41,038 nucleotides of DNA from Balneolaceae bacterium (lineage in GTDB: Bacteria; Bacteroidota; Rhodothermia; Balneolales; Balneolaceae), in NCBI GenBank assembly GCA_003559375.1, contig PWLN01000234.1, positions 1 to 41,038 of the forward strand. Direction: 5' to 3'. Below, piece by piece: positions 2,345-14,568 of the stretch (position 1 is its first letter; each line of letters starts with the position of its first letter). The position numbers were made by a program, and so were the translations under genes. The notes beneath the pieces are model-generated. The model searched no databases, had not been told where the DNA came from, and was given only the letters and a program-made list of their open reading frames with translations.

Positions 2345-3535
2345 TCACTGAGGACATGTTCCCCACAATGGTTTGTGTATGTCAGCAAGCTGGCTGCCAT
2401 CAGAGAAGAAATCAGGTTCTGTTGTGATATTTGATACACACCAACCGCTTAGATCCTGGTCAAAGACTGATGCGTCCTGGAACATCCTGTCCATATTGTT
2501 TACTTTACTCATATCCCAACTGCTGATGTCCTGATTAAACGACACAGCATTTCTGAACATCCAGCCAACATCTTCCACATTACTCATATTCCAGTTCCCG
2601 ATGTCTCTGTTGAAAGAAACAGCATCATTAAACATGGCACTGGTATTGGTTGCATTACTCAGGTCCCATTCGCTGATATCCCCGTTAAATGATTCGGCAC
2701 TGCTAAACATATCATTCATCATATCTGCCCTGGTTAATTGCCAGCCGTTGAGATCCTGATTGAATGAAATGGCATGGTAAAACATAAAACTCAAAACACT
2801 TGCATTACTCACATCCCATCCTGAAATATCCTGTTTGAATGAAATGGCGCTGTTAAACATGCTGCTGACGTGTGTCATACTGCCGACATCCCAGTCTCCA
2901 ATATCCTGATTAAAGGATAAGGCTCCTCTGAAAAGGCTACCAGCTCTCTCCACATTGCTGACGTCCCACATGCTGATGTCCTGATTGAATGAATTGGCGC
3001 TGCTGAACATTCCAGCCATATAAACCACTTTGCTCATATTCCAATCACCTATATGCTGATTAAAAGATTCGGCGCGTTCAAACATTGCACTCATATAAAC
3101 CACTTTCCACGTATCCCAGGCTCCAATGGGCTGATTAAATGCCCTGGCATTTCTGAACATACTGTCCATATCGGTCACATTACTCACATCCCAGTTGCCA
3201 ATGGCCTGGTTAAATGATGTGGCATCAGAGAAAAGATATCTCATGTCCTGGATTCTGGAAGTACAAACCCTAGTCAGATCGGCTCCCTCATCGATACGCA
3301 GATCCAGCAGGTCTCTGTCGACAGCTTCATATTCTGTTCCATTAACCAATCCGGTATCGCCAATTCCTGCAAGCGGACATTTGATCGTGATGCCGTTATC
3401 ATCCAGGTAAAACAGATCTCTTTCATAAACCTCAGGCTGGTTATCTGTTCCGCACCCTGAAAAAACCGGGCTGAAACAAAGTATGATGATAACTGAAATT
3501 ATAGCTACTCTCTTAAGAATGGATATCAAATGCAT
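2345..3535 (-). CDS. BspA/DUF285-type 25-residue-repeat surface lipoprotein
   Basis: 396 residues. The N-terminus (MHLISILKRVAIISVIIILC... VFSGC) is a lipoprotein signal with lipobox FSG-C. From about residue 97 to 375 there are 11 successive 25-residue units with the consensus MFxxAxSFNQDIxxWDxSNVxxM. This is the bacterial surface protein 26-residue repeat (DUF285), found in BspA-like and mycoplasma surface proteins, where it is often linked to adhesion. The DNA shows the matching 75-bp period. The last unit varies (GWCVSNITTEPDFF) and the chain ends soon after, so the repeat block forms nearly the whole mature protein. A C9A10 homopolymer lies about 42 nt upstream of the start codon. Substrate or binding partner cannot be told from sequence. 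Close paralogues are common in marine Bacteroidota and Balneolota. Confidence 0.9.
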   Translation of the reverse strand: MHLISILKRVAIISVIIILCFSPVFSGCGTDNQPEVYERDLFYLDDNGITIKCPLAGIGDTGLVNGTEYEAVDRDLLDLRIDEGADLTRVCTSRIQDMRYLFSDATSFNQAIGNWDVSNVTDMDSMFRNARAFNQPIGAWDTWKVVYMSAMFERAESFNQHIGDWNMSKVVYMAGMFSSANSFNQDISMWDVSNVERAGSLFRGALSFNQDIGDWDVGSMTHVSSMFNSAISFKQDISGWDVSNASVLSFMFYHAISFNQDLNGWQLTRADMMNDMFSSAESFNGDISEWDLSNATNTSAMFNDAVSFNRDIGNWNMSNVEDVGWMFRNAVSFNQDISSWDMSKVNNMDRMFQDASVFDQDLSGWCVSNITTEPDFFSDGSQLADIHKPLWGTCPQ

Positions 3536-3851: not shown

Positions 3852-6371
3852 ATGTTTCCTTCAAGAAGTTCACTAATCATACTTTTTTGCATTGCTGCTC
3901 TCAGCCTGTTATACCTGAGTTGCCGTACATCAAAGCCCATATCTGATCCCGTTACTGAAATCGAAATAGTTCAGGTTGATACATCATCAATATCTCTTCC
4001 AGCTACGGATGAATTCATAATACCACCATGGATTGAACCACGAAAAGAATTTCGGGCAGTGTGGGTTGCTTCAGTTGCCAATATCGATTGGCCGTCTGCA
4101 CCCGGGCTGCCAGTTGAGCAGCAAAAACAGGAACTGATTGATATTCTCGACCGGGCTGCCGCTCTCCATTTTAATGCAATTATACTTCAGGTGCGGCCTG
4201 CGGCTGATGCGCTATACAGTTCTCCGTATGAGCCCTGGTCGTATTATCTCACCGGAAAAATGGGCCAGGCACCACTTCCTTCATACGACCCGCTGGAGTT
4301 TGCTATTTTTGAGGCTCATAAACGCGGCCTTGCACTGCATGCCTGGTTCAATCCATACAGGGCTCTTCATCCCACAAACCGGTCGGAAATATCTCCAGAT
4401 CATATCAGCATCACACACCCGGAATATGTTCATCAGTATGGCGATTTCCTCTGGATGGATCCCGGTATTCCGGAAGTAAAGGAACATACGCTAAAAGTGA
4501 TTCTGGATGTGGTAGAGCGATACGATATTGACGGTGTTCATTTCGATGATTATTTCTACCCATACCCATCCTATGCAAATGGAGCGGATTTTCCAGACGA
4601 CCTGAGCTGGCAACGGGCACTGGAAAATGGAACAACACTATCCAGAGCAGACTGGCGAAGGGAAAATGTGAATTCGCTAATGAGAGAACTCTCTGAACGC
4701 ATCAAACAGATAAAACCGCATATAAAATTTGGTATCAGTCCGTTTGGTATATGGCGCCCTGGCTATCCTGAACAAACCACCGGTTTTGATGCATACAACC
4801 AGCTTTACGCTGATTCAAGGCTTTGGCTGATAGAGGGCTGGGTGGACTATTTCACTCCTCAGCTCTATTACAGAATAAATCAAGTTCCACAGCCATTTCC
4901 CGTTATGCTGCAATGGTGGGCAGAACAAAATGTAAACGGCCGCCACTTGTGGCCTGGGTTGTTTACCAGCCGCCTGCGAACCACTAATATCACCTGGCCG
5001 CTTGAAGAGATAACCGGGCAGGTGTACACATCACGTGGTTTCCCGGGTGTAACCGGAATGGTCCATTTCAGTATGCGAACATTTATGGAAAATTCCGGAA
5101 ATATCAACCAGATGCTGGCTGCCGGACCTCACTCAGTAACGTCGCTCATACCTCCCTCAAACTGGCTTGGCAACGAAAGTCCTGTTAAGCCAAAAGTTAC
5201 AATAAATGATTATGGAGAATATTGGACGCTGCATTTGCAGCCCGGTGTTCCATTTGATGAAGTTCGATGGTACGTAGTAAGAAAAAAATATAACAGCAGA
5301 TTGGAAACTGAAGTGGTACCAGCTACACGCATCGAAACTGTTTATTATGGCGGAAAAGCCATGATGAGGCCTGAAAAAATTGTTGTGACAGCTGTAAACA
5401 GAGTTGGTCTTGAAAGTGCATTTGTTACTGCAAAATTGCCGATAGAAATAAATGAAGAAAATCAATCAGACAGAAATTATCAATTTCAGATTATTGCCCG
5501 CAGTGAGTGGGCAGACAGAGTGCCTTCGGGATTAGAAGCCAATGCCATAAGATTAAACATATTACCTGGCGACACACTGCGGTTCAGGGATCTGACCATC
5601 ATAAATACAGACGCATTGCACGCTATAATGCCACCAGATTTTCTATTCCACACCGAAATACCGGTTCTGGACCATGCAGGAGCTTCAGAAATATCATCCG
5701 TTCGGATCAGTTTGTACCGCAATGGTGTCTCTGAAACCTTATCCCTGAAAAAATCGGAATCGATAAACTGGTATGGATTCCAGATCGGGTTATTAGATCT
5801 GAATCCAAACAATAACCTTGCACAATTCGAAATTGCCGCAACTACCTCACTTCCGGTAAACAGGGCCTCTGTTATGAACACCGGAAGTATCTCAAACCGT
5901 TTTCGTGTATATCACAATATTCATGGAATTACCCTGCACCATTCGTGCATAGAAGAACCTGATCGATCGGAAGGAAATCCTGTTGAAATGCTCAGGGAAT
6001 TATTGCACCGGAGTATGGACTACAACAATTGGTGGGATATACCTTATCACTACCTCATTGACACTAACGGAAATATATATGAAGGAAGAAATCCAAAATT
6101 TGCAGGTGATACAAACACTACATTCGACCCAAGGGGACATCTGCTTATCCGTTTAATGGGAAATTATGAACTGAAGGAACCATCAACTGAACAGATCGAT
6201 GCACTAAGCAGTTTGGCGACAATGGCAATTCTGAAATATGGTTTGTCTGTCCATGATTTTTCCAGTCATAATAATTGGTCGGATTCTTCATGCCATGGTT
6301 CAAGTCTCATTTCAGATCTCGAAGTTGACCTGCTGAAAGAGAAAATTGAGGAAAAGCTGAAAAATATTTAA
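3852..6371 (+). CDS. GHL10 glycosidase-amidase fusion lipoprotein
   Basis: 839 residues. A hydrophobic N-terminus ends in SLLYLSC (Cys24), a weak but plausible lipobox. Residues about 66-410 match the GHL10/DUF187 fold: EFRAVWVASVANIDWPS, NAIILQVRPAADALY, LHAWFNPYR and DGVHFDDYFYPYP are family landmarks. A fibronectin-III-like segment (about 445-525) and a further beta-rich stretch follow. Residues about 690-839 form a PGRP/Amidase_2 domain: GITLHHS supplies a zinc His (H696), PYHYLID is the usual Tyr segment, and H806 with C814 keeps the His-8-Cys spacing of T7-lysozyme-type amidases. In E. coli the GHL10 protein DigH cuts glycan strands already stripped of peptides; amidases do the stripping. 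This chain could therefore do both steps. It sits 291 bases upstream of the pilus-like cluster on the same strand. The domain calls are firm, the coupled activity is inference. Confidence 0.9.
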   Translation: MFPSRSSLIILFCIAALSLLYLSCRTSKPISDPVTEIEIVQVDTSSISLPATDEFIIPPWIEPRKEFRAVWVASVANIDWPSAPGLPVEQQKQELIDILDRAAALHFNAIILQVRPAADALYSSPYEPWSYYLTGKMGQAPLPSYDPLEFAIFEAHKRGLALHAWFNPYRALHPTNRSEISPDHISITHPEYVHQYGDFLWMDPGIPEVKEHTLKVILDVVERYDIDGVHFDDYFYPYPSYANGADFPDDLSWQRALENGTTLSRADWRRENVNSLMRELSERIKQIKPHIKFGISPFGIWRPGYPEQTTGFDAYNQLYADSRLWLIEGWVDYFTPQLYYRINQVPQPFPVMLQWWAEQNVNGRHLWPGLFTSRLRTTNITWPLEEITGQVYTSRGFPGVTGMVHFSMRTFMENSGNINQMLAAGPHSVTSLIPPSNWLGNESPVKPKVTINDYGEYWTLHLQPGVPFDEVRWYVVRKKYNSRLETEVVPATRIETVYYGGKAMMRPEKIVVTAVNRVGLESAFVTAKLPIEINEENQSDRNYQFQIIARSEWADRVPSGLEANAIRLNILPGDTLRFRDLTIINTDALHAIMPPDFLFHTEIPVLDHAGASEISSVRISLYRNGVSETLSLKKSESINWYGFQIGLLDLNPNNNLAQFEIAATTSLPVNRASVMNTGSISNRFRVYHNIHGITLHHSCIEEPDRSEGNPVEMLRELLHRSMDYNNWWDIPYHYLIDTNGNIYEGRNPKFAGDTNTTFDPRGHLLIRLMGNYELKEPSTEQIDALSSLATMAILKYGLSVHDFSSHNNWSDSSCHGSSLISDLEVDLLKEKIEEKLKNI

Positions 6372-6662: not shown

Positions 6663-8447
6663 ATGGACACTCTTAAGAAGAATACCTTTTTTGCACGACG
6701 CAGGCTTGGAGAAGCACTTGTTGATAATCAAATCATAACTGAGACCCAGCTTCAGCAAGCATTAAAAACACACCAGGAAGAACCGGTATCAATACGGAGG
6801 AGGCTCAGTACAATCGTAATTGAAGATTTTGGCGCTGACAGGCATGAAGTTATGAAGACCATATCCCGGCTTTATGCTTTTCGTGAAGTGATGGCCAAAA
6901 CGGAGCCCTCAAAAAAAATGTCTGAGTCTATCCGAAAGTTGATGGACAATCTTCCTGATGATGTGGTTGATGAAATGATTTACAGGAAAACTGTTCCGTT
7001 CAAGGCTGATAAGAATCTGATTGTTCTGGCTTGTGCTGATCCTACTGATCCGCAAATATCCATTCTCGCATCGGAACTGCCGTACAAAATGTATGAGCTA
7101 ACATACTGCAGGTACGAATCCATCGAAAAAATCATTAACTGGGTATATGAGCAGAGAAATGAGTTTCTGAAAGTACTGGATGAAATTGAGTTTGATGATG
7201 CAGAACTTACCACACCCGAACTTGATGAGGAAGAACTCGATTCAGAGATCAATAAAAGCATGCTTAACTCTCTTGTAGAGGGAATGTTGATTGAGGCTGT
7301 ACGAATGGGGGCTAGTGATATTCATATCATTCCTGGAAAGTCAAATGTTACGGATATACTATTCCGGCTTGATGGGCGCCTGCGATTGTGGCATGCACAG
7401 CCAAATGTAAAACCTGAGGCACTTTCAGCAGTAGTTAAAGACAAGTCAATCAATGTTGACCGTTTCGAGCGTGATTCTTCTCAGGATGGTTATATCCAGC
7501 GACGCATAGACAATACCAATATCCGGTTTAGAGTATCAATAATGCCGATGGTAGGTGAAGAATTTAATCGAAAACTCGAATCAATTGTTATCCGGGTACT
7601 TGATGATAGAAAAGTAATCACCGATCTTAACAAACTCGGCCTTCAGACAAAGGCTCATGAAGATTTTACGAAAGCCATTCGCAAGCCGTCTGGCATTGTG
7701 ATTATAACCGGCCCTACCGGTTCCGGTAAGTCAACTACCCTTGTTGCTGCATTACATACCGTAATGAATCCGGAATTCAATGTACTCACGATCGAAGAAC
7801 CGGTAGAGTATCTTATCAAAGGCGCAAGGCAACTAAAAATATCTGAAAGCATGAGCTTTGATTTGGCCATGAGAGGAATTTTGCGCCATGACCCCGACAT
7901 TGTACTAGTTGGTGAGATCAGAGATTTGAAAACAGCAGAAATCGCTATTAAACTTGCCAATACCGGTCACCTTACTTTCTCTACCCTTCATACGAATGAC
8001 GCACCAAGTGCGGTAGCCAGGCTATTTAAAATGGGGGTAGAACCCTTTCTTATTGCAAATGCCATTAACCTTGTGATGGCACAACGTCTTGTAAGAAGGT
8101 TGTGCAATTTTTGCAAGCGCCCAATAGAAAACCCCTCAAAAGAGCCATTGAGAAACCTTGGCTTTACCGATGAGGAAATTCTGAATAATACATTCTATGA
8201 GGCAGTTGGATGTGATAAATGTAATAATGGATATAGCGGACGTATTGCAATATTTGAAGCTCTTTATTTTGACCGAACAATCCAGCGATTGATCTTTGAG
8301 GCTGGCAGTGAAATTGATGAAGATGGATTGCGTCAGCATGCAATAAAAAATGGAATGCTCACACTGAGGGCATCTGGCCGATTAAGAATTATTAATGCCT
8401 ATACCACCATACAAGAGGTGATGGCCATTACACTCGATGACCAATAA
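6663..8447 (+). CDS. pilB: PilB/GspE-type assembly ATPase
   Basis: 594 residues, the length usual for PilB. The N-terminal 150 residues form the MshEN/T2SSE_N type domain (RRRLGEALVDNQIITETQLQ). The ATPase core has Walker A GPTGSGKSTT (350-359), an intact Asp box with TIEEPVEY (E378, E379), Walker B GEIRD (417-421) and a His box NTGHLTFSTLHTNDA. C481, C484, C517 and C520 form the tetracysteine zinc motif of GspE/PilB proteins. This is the cytoplasmic motor that drives pilin polymerisation in type IV pili or pseudopilin extension in type II secretion. It opens a same-strand cluster continuing with PilT-, PilMN-, PilOP- and secretin-like genes, so PilB is preferred over GspE. ATG at 6663 has no clear Shine-Dalgarno site. 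The preceding 291 bases are AT-rich and probably hold the promoter. Confidence 0.92.
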   Translation: MDTLKKNTFFARRRLGEALVDNQIITETQLQQALKTHQEEPVSIRRRLSTIVIEDFGADRHEVMKTISRLYAFREVMAKTEPSKKMSESIRKLMDNLPDDVVDEMIYRKTVPFKADKNLIVLACADPTDPQISILASELPYKMYELTYCRYESIEKIINWVYEQRNEFLKVLDEIEFDDAELTTPELDEEELDSEINKSMLNSLVEGMLIEAVRMGASDIHIIPGKSNVTDILFRLDGRLRLWHAQPNVKPEALSAVVKDKSINVDRFERDSSQDGYIQRRIDNTNIRFRVSIMPMVGEEFNRKLESIVIRVLDDRKVITDLNKLGLQTKAHEDFTKAIRKPSGIVIITGPTGSGKSTTLVAALHTVMNPEFNVLTIEEPVEYLIKGARQLKISESMSFDLAMRGILRHDPDIVLVGEIRDLKTAEIAIKLANTGHLTFSTLHTNDAPSAVARLFKMGVEPFLIANAINLVMAQRLVRRLCNFCKRPIENPSKEPLRNLGFTDEEILNNTFYEAVGCDKCNNGYSGRIAIFEALYFDRTIQRLIFEAGSEIDEDGLRQHAIKNGMLTLRASGRLRIINAYTTIQEVMAITLDDQ

Positions 8448-8987
8448 GGATAAGTTTAACAATTATCTGCATATTGAGCATTCTCAATTATTTTGAAGAA
8501 AAGAATGGATCAATATTGAGCTATAAAATTGTGTTAAACCATTCAGTAAAAAATATTAATCAGCAAATAATATTAAGATTTTCTAATTTATTTTATAAAT
8601 TACATGCTATTTACAGCATATCTTTGAAAGAAGATTAATATTATCATTGACAAAACCTGTAACACTGGCTAAGAATTACGGATTGGCTTTGAAAAGACAG
8701 TGCTTAAAGATTCCATCATATAATTAGTATGAATATCATGAATACTATTTGTGAAATTGTAGTCAGATACATCCGGTTCATAATCATGCTTAATTATCAG
8801 CACAATTTATTCAGATACTCAGTCTCTGATTTTATACACGAAATCTCACCTAATCAGTGTCTAAATAAATTTGCCGATATCACAAATAATGTATGCCGGA
8901 AATACAAATTAAGAGATAAACATTTACAGAATTTTCTTTCAACTGTAAAGTTATCAGATAATATGCAGTAAACAATAATTGTTAGCC
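8448..8987. other. AT-rich gap inside the pilus-like cluster
   Basis: 540 bases between the two ATPase genes. The sequence is AT-rich and has no recognisable RNA gene or hairpin terminator. An open frame at 8729-8971 (80 codons, starting MNIMNTICEIVVRYIRF and ending 16 bases before the PilT-type start) could be a small gene, but its product resembles nothing I know and its composition matches the surrounding AT-rich DNA. The gap is large for an otherwise tight cluster, so a promoter for the downstream genes is likely here. Confidence 0.35.
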
Positions 8988-10211
8988 ATGGAAACCCTTG
9001 TAATTGATAATGTTAAAGAACTTCTTGGAGTAATGCTTCCTCAAGTACCTGAGGAGTTAAGAGGAATTGATCGTATTCAGTTCATCGCTAACATGCTTTT
9101 GAAAGCTCCTTCATCCCACAGAATTGAATTAAGAAGGCATTTAGAATTATATCTTGCCAATATGAAGAAAGTGGAAGCTTCTGATATTGATTTAGGAGGT
9201 GATGGCTGCCAGGGAAAAATCTGGTATCGTATCCATGGAATCAAGAAGCCAATTGCACAGGGGCCTATTTATAAATATGATGAATCCAATTTGTTAATTC
9301 TGAACCTTATTGGTGAAGAACAAATGAAAGTTCTGTTTGAGAGACGAAGTGTTGACCTGTCCTACTCTCTTTCTGCAGACAGAAACCGCAGATTCAGGGC
9401 CACAGTTTATTTTGATATGGATAATATCGGAATGAACATGAGGCAAATAAATGATCAGATTCGTCCTTTTAAAGACCTCAACCTGCACCCCGAAGTAGCA
9501 CGACACTTAAGCCTCAAATATCTCAAGTATGGCCTTACACTTGTAACTGGTATAACAGGTTCTGGCAAATCAACTACTCTAGACACCATTATTGATGCCA
9601 ATAACCGATCGGTACGAGGACATATTGTTATCATCGCTTCGCCAATTGAATTAATGCACAAACCACAAAAATGTATTATCAGGCACAGGGAAGTTGGCAG
9701 AGATGTGCCATCTTTTCGTGATGGAATTGTACAGGCAATGCGCCAGGACCCAGACATTGTAGTGATAGGAGAGTTGCGTGATGACGTAGCTATTCGTAAT
9801 GCCCTGGAAGTAACTGACTCAGGCCACAAAGTCTTCTCAACGCTTCACACTGCTTCAGCAATGGAAAGTATTGACAGAATTATTGGCGAGACAGCTTTAA
9901 ATGAACAGGAAAGGGTTCGGAACAGGCTCGCTGATGTATTGACTTGTGTAATAAGTCAAAAACTGGTAAATACACTTGAAGGAACAAGAGTGTTGGCTAA
10001 AGAGGTACTCATAGCTACACCATCTGTAAGAGCGGCAATCAGAAACAATAATGTACCGGAAATTTATCAAATGCTTAATGAAGGGGGACAATTCGGAATG
10101 CATACTCTGGAACAAGATCTTCAAAGGCTTGTTAGGCAGCGAATCATTAGTGTTGAGGAGGCAATTAACCAGGCTAATAATAAAACCCGTATTAAGCAAT
10201 TGCTTACATAA
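8988..10211 (+). CDS. pilT: PilT-family ATPase with altered Asp box
   Basis: 407 residues from ATG 8988; an in-frame TTG at 8979 is possible but less likely. The C-terminal two thirds match PilT retraction ATPases: Walker A GITGSGKSTT near residue 188, Walker B VVIGELRDD (E262, D265), His box SGHKVFSTLHTAS, and a PilT-like tail (AIRNNNVPEIYQMLNEGG...). The N-terminal region is longer than in typical PilT (about 340 residues). The Asp box, normally TIEDPIE with a catalytic glutamate, reads IIASPIE here: A217 and S218 replace the Glu-Asp pair. The PilB-type neighbour keeps its Glu. The enzyme may hydrolyse ATP poorly, use another residue, or act as a regulatory partner. It ends 11 bases before the PilMN-type gene, implying co-transcription. 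Confidence 0.85.
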   Translation: METLVIDNVKELLGVMLPQVPEELRGIDRIQFIANMLLKAPSSHRIELRRHLELYLANMKKVEASDIDLGGDGCQGKIWYRIHGIKKPIAQGPIYKYDESNLLILNLIGEEQMKVLFERRSVDLSYSLSADRNRRFRATVYFDMDNIGMNMRQINDQIRPFKDLNLHPEVARHLSLKYLKYGLTLVTGITGSGKSTTLDTIIDANNRSVRGHIVIIASPIELMHKPQKCIIRHREVGRDVPSFRDGIVQAMRQDPDIVVIGELRDDVAIRNALEVTDSGHKVFSTLHTASAMESIDRIIGETALNEQERVRNRLADVLTCVISQKLVNTLEGTRVLAKEVLIATPSVRAAIRNNNVPEIYQMLNEGGQFGMHTLEQDLQRLVRQRIISVEEAINQANNKTRIKQLLT

Positions 10212-10222
10212 ACTTTAGAACG

Positions 10223-12472
10223 TTGGCTAAGAAAGAATTCATAGGTATCTGTAGTGAATACGACCGGCTTCGAATGGCACGTGTTCAATTAACCAAAGGA
10301 GGAATTAAACTGCTTGGTGTTGAAACACTTGATATGCCATATCCGATCGCAAAGATAAATGAAGGAACATCTGATCCATTGAATCTTACAGACGACATTG
10401 ATGAATTTTTTGGTCTTGATGTTGTTGAGAAAGATACAGACGATTCTTTCCCTGAACTAACCGGTTCTGGCAAAAAATCAAAAGAATCTGATATTTCCGG
10501 GGAGTCATATTTAGAAGATAATTTTGATATGACCCGAATTGATGAAGATTCGGATACAGTAACCGATAACGAAAAAATATTAGCTGATTACTTCCAGAAG
10601 TTAGGCCGTAAAAAACTTCACTTCGGGCTTCATATTCCTTTTGGAAAGACTACATTTCAATTTGTCAGGAATGTGGATCCTGACAAAATGCGTAAGAAAG
10701 AACAAATTGATTTTTTTAACGAGAAACTCCGGCCTATTCATAATGAAGATCCGGAACCTGATCATTACAGCTGGGCAAAAGCTGCCGAAAATACCTGCCT
10801 GATTGCCTATAACCGTAATGAAACATCATTAATCAATTTAATTGAAGTTGCCGAGACTTATTATAAAGGCAAGCTAATAATTAATGAGCGCCTGCCTGAT
10901 GAAAGTATATGGGCTGGACTTGTTCGGGTAAATTATAATCTAACCCCGGATGATATCACAGGAATTATTGCAATCGGAGAGAAGTCTTCCCGAATTATGT
11001 TTATGAAAGGCAGAGAGATTTTTAATATTCTGCCAATCATAAACGAAGGGGAGAATAGTGATGATATCCTTAACACCATCTTTAGTAAAATCCTGTTCGA
11101 AATTGATAAAGGTGAACTGCCTAAACTCAACAGAATTTTAATAGCACGCTCAGCAAAGTTAAGTGAAAAAGTAAAACCCTATTTTGAAAAGCAGTTCGAT
11201 GAAATAGAAGTCGATTATCTTTCACTTCATCCGCAATATGTTTCATATGCAGATGAAATACTGAGTTCGCCGGATTATTTACAGCCCTATCTGTCTGCTA
11301 TTGGTGCCGCATGGGCTGCCAGCGGCGCGAACGAAAAAGAATTTTCTGAGCTTGCCCTGCTCCCCGATTATGTAAAAGAAAAACAACGTACATTAAAGAT
11401 TGAGTGGCACGGCATTGTGATATTGATTTTTATCGCACTTACTCCGCTTTACATTAATAATCTGTACCTATCAAGAGAGGCTGAATTAGCGCAACTTGAA
11501 CAGCAGGTACGCCTTATTGAGAATCAGATAGAAGAACTTCGGCCGATTGCCAATATGACTGAAGACCTTGTCGCTGATTACCAGGTCATTCAGTCTGAAA
11601 ACGACAGGCTTCTTGAATTGGCCAGTTACAGTCAAAAATGGTCAGAAGTGTTTTCCCTAATGAACGATGGAATATCGCAGATTCCACAGATATGGCTAAC
11701 CTCACTCAGAAGTGACGATGAAAATCTGAATCTTACTGGCGTGTCGTTAACACGACAACAAATCCCGGTTCTTGCACGGCTTTTTACAGACGCAAATATT
11801 CAACAGGTTTCAGAAACAGAACTAAGGGAGCAGCCAGTATATACTTTTGCCATGCAAGCCAATAATTACCGGCAAGACATTGAAGAGTTTCTTATTGAAA
11901 TGCCGCAAGTTGAATTTGATTTCGAACAAGGGGCCATGATCGAACTTGATTTTTCATTGGCACCTGAGGCAATTGAGGCTCCGGTTTTAGTCCCGGCAAT
12001 AAATGATAATCAATTTAGCGGTAATTCACCATCAGAAGTACTTACCCCTGCCGAAGGGGAAGATACTGAAATTGCAAATCAACCAGTGAATGAAGCAACT
12101 ATTGCAAATCAAAATGATGCTGAGACAACTGCAGAGAATAATGATGTACAAATTATTGAAACACCCGGCCAGGAAGGTTTCACTGGCACCACACGATACG
12201 GGCTTCGAGGACCTGAAGATGAACTATTGATCGGATCATATACCATAGTTTTGCATTCCATCCCAGACAGCACCCGCGCTGATGCCGAATACCAAATGCT
12301 CAGGCAAGAAGGATATAAGGCCACCTTGTGGCAGGCAGAAATTGAAGAAGGCCAATTTAACTGGAGAATCGGAGTCGGCCATTTTCAAACGATATCGGAT
12401 GCATTAAATGCCATAACAGAATTACCGGAACCATACAGATCAAATAATTTTATCATCCGGATTCGCGAATAA
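10223..12472 (+). CDS. PilM-PilN fusion with C-terminal SPOR domain
   Basis: 749 residues from TTG 10223; the next in-frame ATG would remove the first core strand, so TTG is chosen. Residues 1 to about 390 resemble the actin-like PilM/GspL cytoplasmic fold (FIGICSEYDRLRMARVQL at the start), with an acidic insertion at about 70-120. The usual DIGS phosphate loop is not kept. A transmembrane helix (about 394-414) and a coiled coil (about 415-460) follow, then a PilN-like periplasmic domain. A Gln/Asn/Glu-rich linker leads to a SPOR domain (about 668-749: YTIVLHSIPDSTRADAEYQML ... WRIGVGHFQTISDALNAI). PilM and PilN are usually separate; they form the inner-membrane platform linking motor to secretin. 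SPOR domains bind glycan strands lacking stem peptides, so this chain would also hold peptidoglycan directly. Fusion seen; anchoring role inferred. Confidence 0.82.
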   Translation: MAKKEFIGICSEYDRLRMARVQLTKGGIKLLGVETLDMPYPIAKINEGTSDPLNLTDDIDEFFGLDVVEKDTDDSFPELTGSGKKSKESDISGESYLEDNFDMTRIDEDSDTVTDNEKILADYFQKLGRKKLHFGLHIPFGKTTFQFVRNVDPDKMRKKEQIDFFNEKLRPIHNEDPEPDHYSWAKAAENTCLIAYNRNETSLINLIEVAETYYKGKLIINERLPDESIWAGLVRVNYNLTPDDITGIIAIGEKSSRIMFMKGREIFNILPIINEGENSDDILNTIFSKILFEIDKGELPKLNRILIARSAKLSEKVKPYFEKQFDEIEVDYLSLHPQYVSYADEILSSPDYLQPYLSAIGAAWAASGANEKEFSELALLPDYVKEKQRTLKIEWHGIVILIFIALTPLYINNLYLSREAELAQLEQQVRLIENQIEELRPIANMTEDLVADYQVIQSENDRLLELASYSQKWSEVFSLMNDGISQIPQIWLTSLRSDDENLNLTGVSLTRQQIPVLARLFTDANIQQVSETELREQPVYTFAMQANNYRQDIEEFLIEMPQVEFDFEQGAMIELDFSLAPEAIEAPVLVPAINDNQFSGNSPSEVLTPAEGEDTEIANQPVNEATIANQNDAETTAENNDVQIIETPGQEGFTGTTRYGLRGPEDELLIGSYTIVLHSIPDSTRADAEYQMLRQEGYKATLWQAEIEEGQFNWRIGVGHFQTISDALNAITELPEPYRSNNFIIRIRE

Positions 12473-12482
12473 CTCAACCAAA

Positions 12483-13343
12483 ATGAAATATAGCGTTCGA
12501 AATACTCTGATTTTGCTTTTCACACTTGCCATAATGGTTGGTGGCGGATGGTTTTATGTGCATAACAAATTCAGTGAGGATATCGAACTCAATGCAAACA
12601 GAATTGAAAACCTGGAGCGTGAATACAGGCAAATCGAAAGTACCGCGAATATGTTTGCTATTGCCCAGGCTAATTACAATGAAGCGCTATATGTACGTTT
12701 AAATCACCCTAAAGAATTATTCCGTGATCATAGTTCAAGTAACTTCTATGATTATCTACAGGAATTAAACCGTGGCATTTCATTTACAGAATTAAATTAC
12801 TCACTCAATGATTCAACCCGAAATCAGGACCACGGTATTGTTAGTGTTAATATTCAGGGCGAAGGTCGATACGAAAATCTTGTTAATTTTATATACAGGC
12901 TGTAATACAGCAGGCCACTTGTTCAAATACGTTCTGTACAGCTCGATAATATCACTGACTTCGAACGCCTTGACAGGGTTAACTTTCAGATAGCAATCGG
13001 GGCATATTATCGTCGTGGTGAGTGGACGAATTACCGTGCAGCCCTTGAGCCTTCTGATCCTTTTGGCAGAATTTTACATAACCCCTACTATCCGTTAATC
13101 CATGAAGTAGCCCCAAATATTGAAGATCTTCCTGAAGTTGATAACAGCAGGCTTGTTGTATTGACAGGATCAACAGTTCATATCATCGATCAAAACGGAA
13201 CTTTACAAAGGCTGAATATTGGAGACAGAGTCTATTTGGGAAGATTGACTTCCATCAATATGCAGCGCGGTGAAGCTGAGTTTCAACTAAACCGAGGTGG
13301 AATCAGAGACAGAGTAGTACTGACACTCACACAACAACAATAG
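12483..13343 (+). pseudogene. PilO-PilP-like fusion interrupted by an in-frame TAA
   Basis: One frame of 287 codons runs from ATG 12483 to TAG at 13343, broken only by TAA at 12903-12905. The first part (140 residues) has a transmembrane helix (about 7-24), a coiled coil and a PilO core ending GRYENLVNFIYRL. After the TAA the same frame goes on with YSRPLVQIRSVQLDN, exactly what follows a Glu in PilO proteins (pattern FxYRLExxxPLVxI). One G-to-T change (GAA to TAA) explains it. Residues from about 227 on (VVLTGSTVHIIDQNGTLQRL) resemble the PilP/GspC homology region, so PilO and PilP seem fused. No ATG exists between the stop and 13262, so re-initiation cannot restore the middle. It begins 10 bases after the PilMN-type gene and ends 7 before the secretin gene. 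Either a real nonsense mutation or a sequence error. Confidence 0.8.
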
Positions 13344-13350
13344 ATCAGGC

Positions 13351-14568
13351 ATGAAAATGAAATTAAAAATTGCTCTTTCAGTCATTTTGCTTCTGGCAAC
13401 TATTACCAATGCAAATTCTCAGGACAGGCTTCCGGAACGTGAATTTGTAAATCCGGAGGAACTTATCATCCTGTCAAGAGACATCAGTTTTGCCAACGCT
13501 CTTGATATTTTGGAGGAGTTTGCCATGCAATTCAGGAACAAGATTTTTATCAACCGTGCTACATTTACAGGGCCAATTGGAATTGATATACCCCAAATGC
13601 ACTGGGAAGATGCCTTGTTTAGAATAACTGCAGCAAACAATATGGTTGTGAATGAGTTAAATCGGTACTACGAAATATTTGATGTGCCGGATGATGAAAT
13701 CGAAATGGTGGAAGATGAACGCCCCAGAAGAGCAATAGAAGATGTTGTCGTTAATTTTGGTACAAGAGAAATTGAGATATCCGCAACATTTTTCCAGGGC
13801 GACAGGCGTCTGATCCGTGAACTTGGAATTGATTGGACCAGTCTGTATAACGACAGGGTTCGGTTACAAAATTTTTCTGCAGCAAGTGTTGGCCAGGATG
13901 TATTCGAAGCAGAATTTAACTGGACAGACATCTTTAATTCCGGCTGGGATATCAACGCCCTGTTTAGTGCTTTTGAAACAAGCGACAAAGGTGAAATACT
14001 ATCGTCGCCTACCATTAAAGTAATGGATGGAGAAGAAGGCAGAATACAAGTGGGGCAGGACTTTTCTATTAAACAGCGTGATTTTGCAGGTAATATCACC
14101 GACCGGTTTTTCAATACCGGTACAATCCTTACTGTAAATCCTCGTGTTTTTTATCATGAAGGTGAACCATTCATCTATATGCGGGTAAATGCGGAAAGAA
14201 GTACAGCCCAGCCCGATCCCATCAGTACTATAGTTTTTAAACAGGAAGCCCAAACAGACCTATTGCTCCTTAGTGGAGAAAGTACCGTTATTGCCGGCCT
14301 ATATGAGACTGAAGTGATTCGTACACGAAGAGGAATCCCCTTCCTTAAAGATCTGCCTGGCTGGTTTTTTGGATTGCGTTACCTTTTTGGTTATGAATCT
14401 ACTGAAAATGTAGTTCAGGAGCTTGTAGTGCTTTTAAAAGCTACACTTGTACCTACACTTGAAGAAAGGCTTGCCGATCCTCGCAGAGAAATCCCGGACC
14501 TGCTTCGGGACCGACGAATCCAATTCCAGGAGGAATTGAGGGAATTGGAGCAAATACAGCTTGATTAA
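13351..14568 (+). CDS. pilQ: Compact PilQ/GspD-type secretin
   Basis: 405 residues with a Sec signal peptide (about 1-23, hydrophobic core SVILLLATI). Residues about 40-115 form one STN/N0-like domain (FANALDILEEFAMQFRNKIFI ... WEDALFRITAANNM). The conserved secretin beta-domain follows at once, with GEILSSPTIKVMDGEEGRIQVG, VNPRVFYHEGEPFIYMRVN and the signature RRGIPFLKDLPGWFFGLRYLFG near residue 330. The N1/N2 ring-building domains and AMIN domains found in most PilQ/GspD proteins are absent, which makes this much shorter than the usual 550-800 residues. A charged tail ends the chain. It should form the outer-membrane channel of the machine. It lies 7 bases after the PilO-PilP-like frame and is followed by an intrinsic terminator, marking the end of the cluster. 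Confidence 0.88.
   Translation: MKMKLKIALSVILLLATITNANSQDRLPEREFVNPEELIILSRDISFANALDILEEFAMQFRNKIFINRATFTGPIGIDIPQMHWEDALFRITAANNMVVNELNRYYEIFDVPDDEIEMVEDERPRRAIEDVVVNFGTREIEISATFFQGDRRLIRELGIDWTSLYNDRVRLQNFSAASVGQDVFEAEFNWTDIFNSGWDINALFSAFETSDKGEILSSPTIKVMDGEEGRIQVGQDFSIKQRDFAGNITDRFFNTGTILTVNPRVFYHEGEPFIYMRVNAERSTAQPDPISTIVFKQEAQTDLLLLSGESTVIAGLYETEVIRTRRGIPFLKDLPGWFFGLRYLFGYESTENVVQELVVLLKATLVPTLEERLADPRREIPDLLRDRRIQFQEELRELEQIQLD

Follow-up and report, generated by a model that had tools for sequence, protein, structure and literature searches.

Candidate wall docking of a type IV filament machine through a SPOR tail on the platform protein PilM-N in one sub-clade of Balneolaceae

In Pseudomonas, the AMIN domains of the secretin PilQ and the LysM domain of FimV are needed for the placement of type IVa pili (T4aP) at poles and division sites, where the wall is rich in denuded glycan (PMC5285504). 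In the type II secretion system (T2SS) of Legionella, the secretin LspD carries an N-terminal SPOR domain, which was proposed to help localisation (PMC6617341; for the SPOR domain see also PMC9239104). Structural data on SPOR bound to glycan revealed side-chain contacts by a conserved glutamine, the most conserved of these contacts, and by a basic patch, and many main-chain contacts besides (PMC6895207). Further, FtsA with FtsN was likened to PilM with PilN (PMC7613929).

Here we describe a protein encoded in a 41,038-nt stretch of Balneolaceae DNA (contig PWLN01000234.1; this whole stretch is called the window), in which a PilM/GspL-like part, a PilN part and a SPOR domain are joined in one chain, named PilM-N in the following. 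The gene and the parts of its product are:

10223-12472, forward strand: PilM/GspL-like, PilN and SPOR fusion gene, 749 aa, TTG start backed by alignment A1
10223-11392, forward strand: cytoplasmic part in the PilM/GspL position, residues 1-390, assigned by position and conservation, fold inferred
11408-11470, forward strand: single membrane helix, residues ~396-416, from hydropathy
11471-11902, forward strand: coiled coil and PilN-like periplasmic part, residues 417-560, from Pfam PilN and PDB 3jc8
11903-12187, forward strand: linker, residues 561-655, probably disordered, fast-evolving by identity and omega
12188-12469, forward strand: captured SPOR tail with the upstream YGLRGPEDELLIG motif, residues 656-749, Pfam core at 12233-12427

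GspL, which we take to be the known counterpart of fusions of the PilM-N type, and the Amuc_1101 PilM-like family (NF045709) are similar in having a cytoplasmic PilM-like part, one helix and a PilN-like part in one chain. To our knowledge, neither has a SPOR tail. The match of the window protein to the Amuc_1101 model ("PilM-like pilus complex protein" in NCBIfam) is weak and lies mainly in the PilN half (residues 375-537); weak matches were obtained for 27 of 43 relatives.

PilQ of the Pseudomonas and Myxococcus T4aP is comparable in that a wall-binding domain sits on the alignment machine and is needed for its placement at septum and pole (PMC5285504). However, the domain is AMIN and not SPOR, and it belongs to the outer-membrane secretin, whereas the tail described here belongs to the inner-membrane platform. 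LspD shares with our case a SPOR domain on a secretin-type machine, but there it is N-terminal on the secretin, whereas the window has it at the C-terminus of PilM-N and sister Balneolaceae have it at the C-terminus of the secretin. A sequence-only reading of the window had considered the anchoring of such a machine to denuded wall as novel; this does not hold, since PilQ AMIN (PMC5285504) and LspD SPOR (PMC6617341, PMC9239104) precede it. The pair FtsA-FtsN is also similar, in that an actin-fold protein acts together with a bitopic partner ending in SPOR (PMC7613929), but these are two proteins, they act in cell division, and in the N-terminal part of the window protein the actin fold is only putative.

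PilM-N is encoded by a single uninterrupted frame. Its start site is common to the nearest homologues, in which it is GTG or TTG (alignment A1), and the sequence upstream of it is without conservation. The SPOR-tailed form recurs in 16 further genomes, 13 of which have one complete frame; in the remaining three, the gene is cut by contig ends (G010, G017) or contains frame breaks (G005). An assembly artefact, which the sequence-only reading had named as a possible refutation of the fusion, was therefore rejected, and its description of one real open frame of 749 aa with helix, coiled coil, PilN-like part and SPOR domain was confirmed.

The gene is part of an operon whose order, PilT, PilM-N, PilO-P, secretin, hardly varies among the loci read; PilB is usually nearby. 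In the window, the following neighbours were found:

6663-8447, forward strand: PilB/GspE-like assembly ATPase, from profile matches
8979-10211, forward strand: PilT-like retraction ATPase, ATG at 8988, from profile matches
12483-13343, forward strand: PilO/GspM-like frame whose C-terminal part may be PilP-like; one gene in relatives, with an in-frame TAA at 12903-12905
13351-14568, forward strand: short secretin, 405 aa, no SPOR, AMIN or LysM match

Thus, the type IVa set of PilB, PilT, PilC, secretin and PilMNOP-like proteins is present, the PilM part by position only. Prepilin peptidase and pilins with a charged leader were not found: the window's genome has no Peptidase_A24 match, and the same profile (PF01478) found none in 51 of 58 near-complete genomes of the order. 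The pilin query gave nothing in the window's genome (G000, a 92%-complete assembly), though PilB, PilT, PilC and the secretin are present. In other loci, pilin-like proteins adjoining pilC (L065:17202-18163, L074:17635-18762, L040:43-483 and others) begin with MGQQQLLLVILVTIIVGIATVVAIN and have neither a charged leader nor Glu5. Possibly, the product is a type IV filament with leaderless pilins. When the PilO-P frame is read past the TAA, its omega against the relative L058 is 0.04, and thus the stop is recent or an assembly error. The in-frame stop in this gene, together with the lack of a pilin match, suggests that the window's copy of the operon may be decaying; the SPOR-tailed relative G012 has an intact operon.

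Further observations were made at this locus. A gene of approximately 166 aa between PilB and PilT, intact in L058 and broken in L059, was not detected in the window (8448-8978); by eye, its product resembles the cyclic-nucleotide-binding fold. A protein with GHL10 (DigH-like) and Amidase_2 domains is encoded just upstream of pilB (3852-6371). As a sign of a dedicated module this neighbour was rejected, since the adjacency is limited to the window, L058 and L059, the three closest species. On the minus strand, 2345-3535 encodes repeated SFNQDISxWDVSNVTxMxxMF units, by eye a BspA-like surface repeat.

The fusion gene sits after pilT and before the PilO-like gene, which is the place where PilM and PilN would be expected in a T4aP operon. 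Over residues 1-390, which include a poorly conserved acidic insert (residues 46-111), Pfam, PDB and family-profile searches gave no convincing match to PilM, GspL or FtsA. Comparisons with E. coli HofM and GspL, with a HofM-sized protein of the phylum, with an FtsA profile, with the PDB and with Pfam were uninformative about PilM; neither PilM (PF11104) nor the cytoplasmic domain of GspL is matched by sequence, and the PF11104 matches in the phylum are mostly FtsA. The full-length AlphaFold model, built on a three-sequence alignment, has a pLDDT of 34, too low for a fold search, and beta-beta-beta-alpha patterns are seen at this low confidence. Taken with the gene order, the PilN half and the weak Amuc_1101 match, these patterns make the PilM label plausible by inference. 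Thus, of the PilM-like actin-fold region proposed from the letters of the sequence, the PilM/GspL position stood and the recognition by sequence profile did not.

The conserved segment LLPxYVxEKQ precedes the membrane helix, and a WHG motif is near-invariant in alignment A1. The helix is the only hydrophobic stretch of the protein and is rich in K/R on its N side; therefore, residues 1-395 should be cytoplasmic and the remainder, including the SPOR tail, should according to this predicted topology be periplasmic. In the window protein alone, the Pfam PilN domain (PF05137, residues 489-546) scores 20.3 against a cut-off of 22.8 and so falls 2.5 bits short. The family is nevertheless recognised: 27 of 43 members match PF05137 at E <=0.01, and the profile of the 43 relatives matches Myxococcus PilN (3jc8) at 3e-10 over helix, coil and periplasmic part. 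The Pfam check of the chain thus confirmed SPOR above its cut-off and PilN by the family profile, and gave no PilM.

A SPOR domain had been expected at about residues 668-749, and PF05036 indeed matches residues 671-735 with 27.2 bits (cut-off 21), a match also found by the whole-genome scan at 12233-12427. Structure prediction of the tail agrees with this: the model of residues 654-749 has the beta-alpha-beta-beta-alpha-beta RNP-like SPOR fold (pLDDT 67 overall, mostly 70-85 in the core) and best matches the SPOR structures of RlpA (Z 8.9; rmsd 2.5 over 74 residues), DamX (8.1), CwlC (7.9) and DedD (7.2), with unrelated chains at Z <=6.1 except the exported protein 6ozd at 9.2.

The tail is separated from the PilN part by the linker of approximately 95 residues. 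Among 14 SPOR-tailed sequences the mean pairwise identity is 0.58 in residues 1-390, 0.63-0.64 in helix, coil and PilN part, 0.20 in the linker and 0.55 in the tail. The pair L058 and L059 gave omega values of 0.08 (core), 0.38 (linker) and 0.05 (tail), and for the tails of the window and L058 the value was 0.11; these NG86 values are rough, because dS is near saturation in several comparisons. In 17 species-level genomes the SPOR sequence and the C-terminus are conserved while the linker diverges. Judged by these substitution patterns, the tail is under purifying selection and behaves as a working domain. The glycan-contacting glutamine of strand 1, which in SPOR domains is preferred but not universal and is thus no condition of membership, is Val676 in all 17 PilM-N tails; Ser679 is kept in 15 and Arg715 in all 17. 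Valine also stands at this position in 32 of 33 tails of separate HU-SPOR proteins of Balneolales, and isoleucine in most secretin tails, which argues for a feature of the local SPOR stock and against decay of the fused copy.

PilM-N is present in 94 of the 129 genomes of the order, mostly with 541-606 aa and ending at the PilN part. Several other families of the phylum have a similar chain of ~510-560 aa, and the 20 such loci read there leave no room for a SPOR tail. Hence the fusion itself, which had been thought unusual, is what this order normally has, and other parts of the phylum have it as well. The search for the same domain order found PilM-N across order and phylum, and the SPOR tail in one sub-clade of the window's genus only (the window and 16 genomes). 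Two of the relatives that bear names are metagenome genomes of soda-lake type with the label Balneolaceae. It is the SPOR tail and not the PilM-N fusion which is the new part: a real, lineage-restricted and selected addition, and a new version of a known kind of wall docking.

The secretins of the 17 SPOR-tailed genomes are short, with 406-428 aa. Elsewhere in the window's family (f1), 52 genomes have secretin frames of 614-715 aa and a short PilM-N. Twelve of these long secretins were read, and all end in a stretch like YVIGGSF...AWLSR; four of them have a Pfam SPOR match, and as a group they match other SPOR tails at 77-89% profile probability, while the other 40 were judged on length. The 22 short secretins read, including that of the window, gave no match to SPOR, AMIN or LysM, and no genome had a SPOR tail on both PilM-N and the secretin, a complementary pattern that rests on about two evolutionary events. 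Three f1 genomes (G069, G074, G075) have a mid-sized secretin and PilM-N without tail, and by frame length the families f3, f4 and f5 have SPOR on neither protein. Since f3 to f5 and these three f1 genomes run the operon without SPOR on PilM-N or, by length, on the secretin, SPOR docking is non-essential to the machine. At G076:C2, G102:C205 and G021:C111 the pilus operon occurs a second time, there with a short PilM-N, a mid-sized secretin and apparently no SPOR.

Where could the tail come from? The Balneolales HU-SPOR proteins (HU/Bac_DNA_binding plus SPOR) have a similar C-terminus, but they lack pilus parts and are encoded by a separate gene elsewhere in the genome. Over their C-terminal 95 residues, those of the f3 type are most similar to the PilM-N tail (54-61% identity) and share with it the preceding YGLRGPEDE motif and the last residues; three HU-SPOR proteins from the SPOR-tailed genomes themselves reach only 33-41%. 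In a tree of 62 tails, which has ~110 columns and many weak forks, the 17 PilM-N tails and the f3 HU-SPOR tails come together (95/94), and the secretin tails stand apart from them (100/100). These relationships at the sequence level show that an HU-SPOR protein of the kind found in f3 was the source of the tail and its upstream motif.

The trees of the PilM-N core and the secretin also group the SPOR-tailed operon with f3 (SH-aLRT 99 and 96, respectively), and a single f1 clade is rejected for both (p-AU 4.5e-6 and 3.1e-4). The species marker GltX gives another picture: identity of the window GltX is 73-85% within the genus, 69-73% to other f1 genera and 58-63% to f3, and in its tree the SPOR-tailed genomes cluster together (SH-aLRT 93) next to the other members of the genus, within f1. 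Thus, operon and tail both look foreign. As far as such trees can tell, the simplest explanation is that an operon transferred from an f3-like lineage replaced the resident one, with ancient duplication followed by losses as an alternative.

We propose that the fusion protein would serve at the inner membrane as the alignment subunit of a retractile type IV filament machine made of PilB, PilT, PilC, PilM-N, PilO-P and secretin. Its periplasmic tail would bind to stem-peptide-poor glycan strands at septa and young poles, and this binding would recruit the platform and hold it there before and during the building of the secretin. From the inner membrane, the tail would thus do what the secretin SPOR may do in other Balneolaceae and PilQ AMIN in Pseudomonas. 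The ancestor of the sub-clade would have given up its operon with a SPOR-bearing secretin in exchange for one of the f3 type that lacks SPOR, and docking would then have been regained on PilM-N. By analogy, we give somewhat better than even chances to a wall-docking tail on the platform which works like PilQ AMIN or LspD SPOR. It is tempting to speculate that wall binding is in addition signalled across the membrane to the assembly ATPases, which would restrict filament formation to septa or fresh poles; such signalling is possible since tail and cytoplasmic scaffold domain belong to one continuous chain. PilM-N would then act for a pilus as a single-chain counterpart of FtsA-FtsN whose docking module moved to the platform from the secretin once the operon had been exchanged, but we consider this unlikely.

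The position of Val676 bears on what the tail may bind. The residue replaces the most conserved side-chain contact to glycan (PMC6895207) in 17 of 17 PilM-N tails and, as mentioned above, in nearly all HU-SPOR tails. This would fit a module for protein interaction or generic wall contact in place of a sensor of denuded glycan, a module which positions or steadies the machine through a division protein, a wall hydrolase or the ordinary wall. However, fold, basic positions and backbone-contact positions are kept, and with many main-chain contacts between SPOR and glycan (PMC6895207) the glutamine may be dispensable; we regard such a partner as improbable. Alternatively, the tail could be a mechanical anchor against the force of retraction, with other factors setting the location. 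PilT is present, the window secretin has no AMIN or LysM match, and the PilQ AMIN domains were also proposed to counter twitching forces (PMC5285504). On the other hand, a long, fast-evolving linker is a poor force-bearing element and families without SPOR on the machine keep PilT, and thus a mere anchor appears quite improbable to us.

That the end of an HU-SPOR protein was joined by accidental recombination and has little or no function would agree with its presence in one sub-clade only and with a variable linker as the joint, but the conservation of SPOR and C-terminus in 17 species-level genomes over a diverging linker disfavours it, and in view of these selection data we hold it for very improbable. 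Another question is whether the machine is a pilus at all. Bacteroidetes T2SS cluster with T4aP (PMC6668835). The layout of PilM-N is like that of GspL, PilO-P matches GspM families, and most of these genomes are without a match to the prepilin peptidase profile, all of which would suit a secretion system of the Bacteroidetes T2SS kind. Against it, a PilT-family ATPase is encoded directly upstream in nearly every locus read, and we know of no T2SS with PilT. A secretion system therefore seems rather doubtful to us; the tail would have the same docking role in it, so that this possibility is compatible with docking to the wall.

In summary, we favour the docking of the platform to the wall through the SPOR tail of PilM-N. 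Our observations suggest that the site of the wall-docking domain on a trans-envelope machine can change while the type of domain stays, the domain being on the pore in most Balneolaceae and on the platform in one clade. The sub-clade would thus be an experiment of nature on how pilus machines come to their position in the wall, and one could test in it directly whether a dock at the inner membrane can stand in for one on the secretin.
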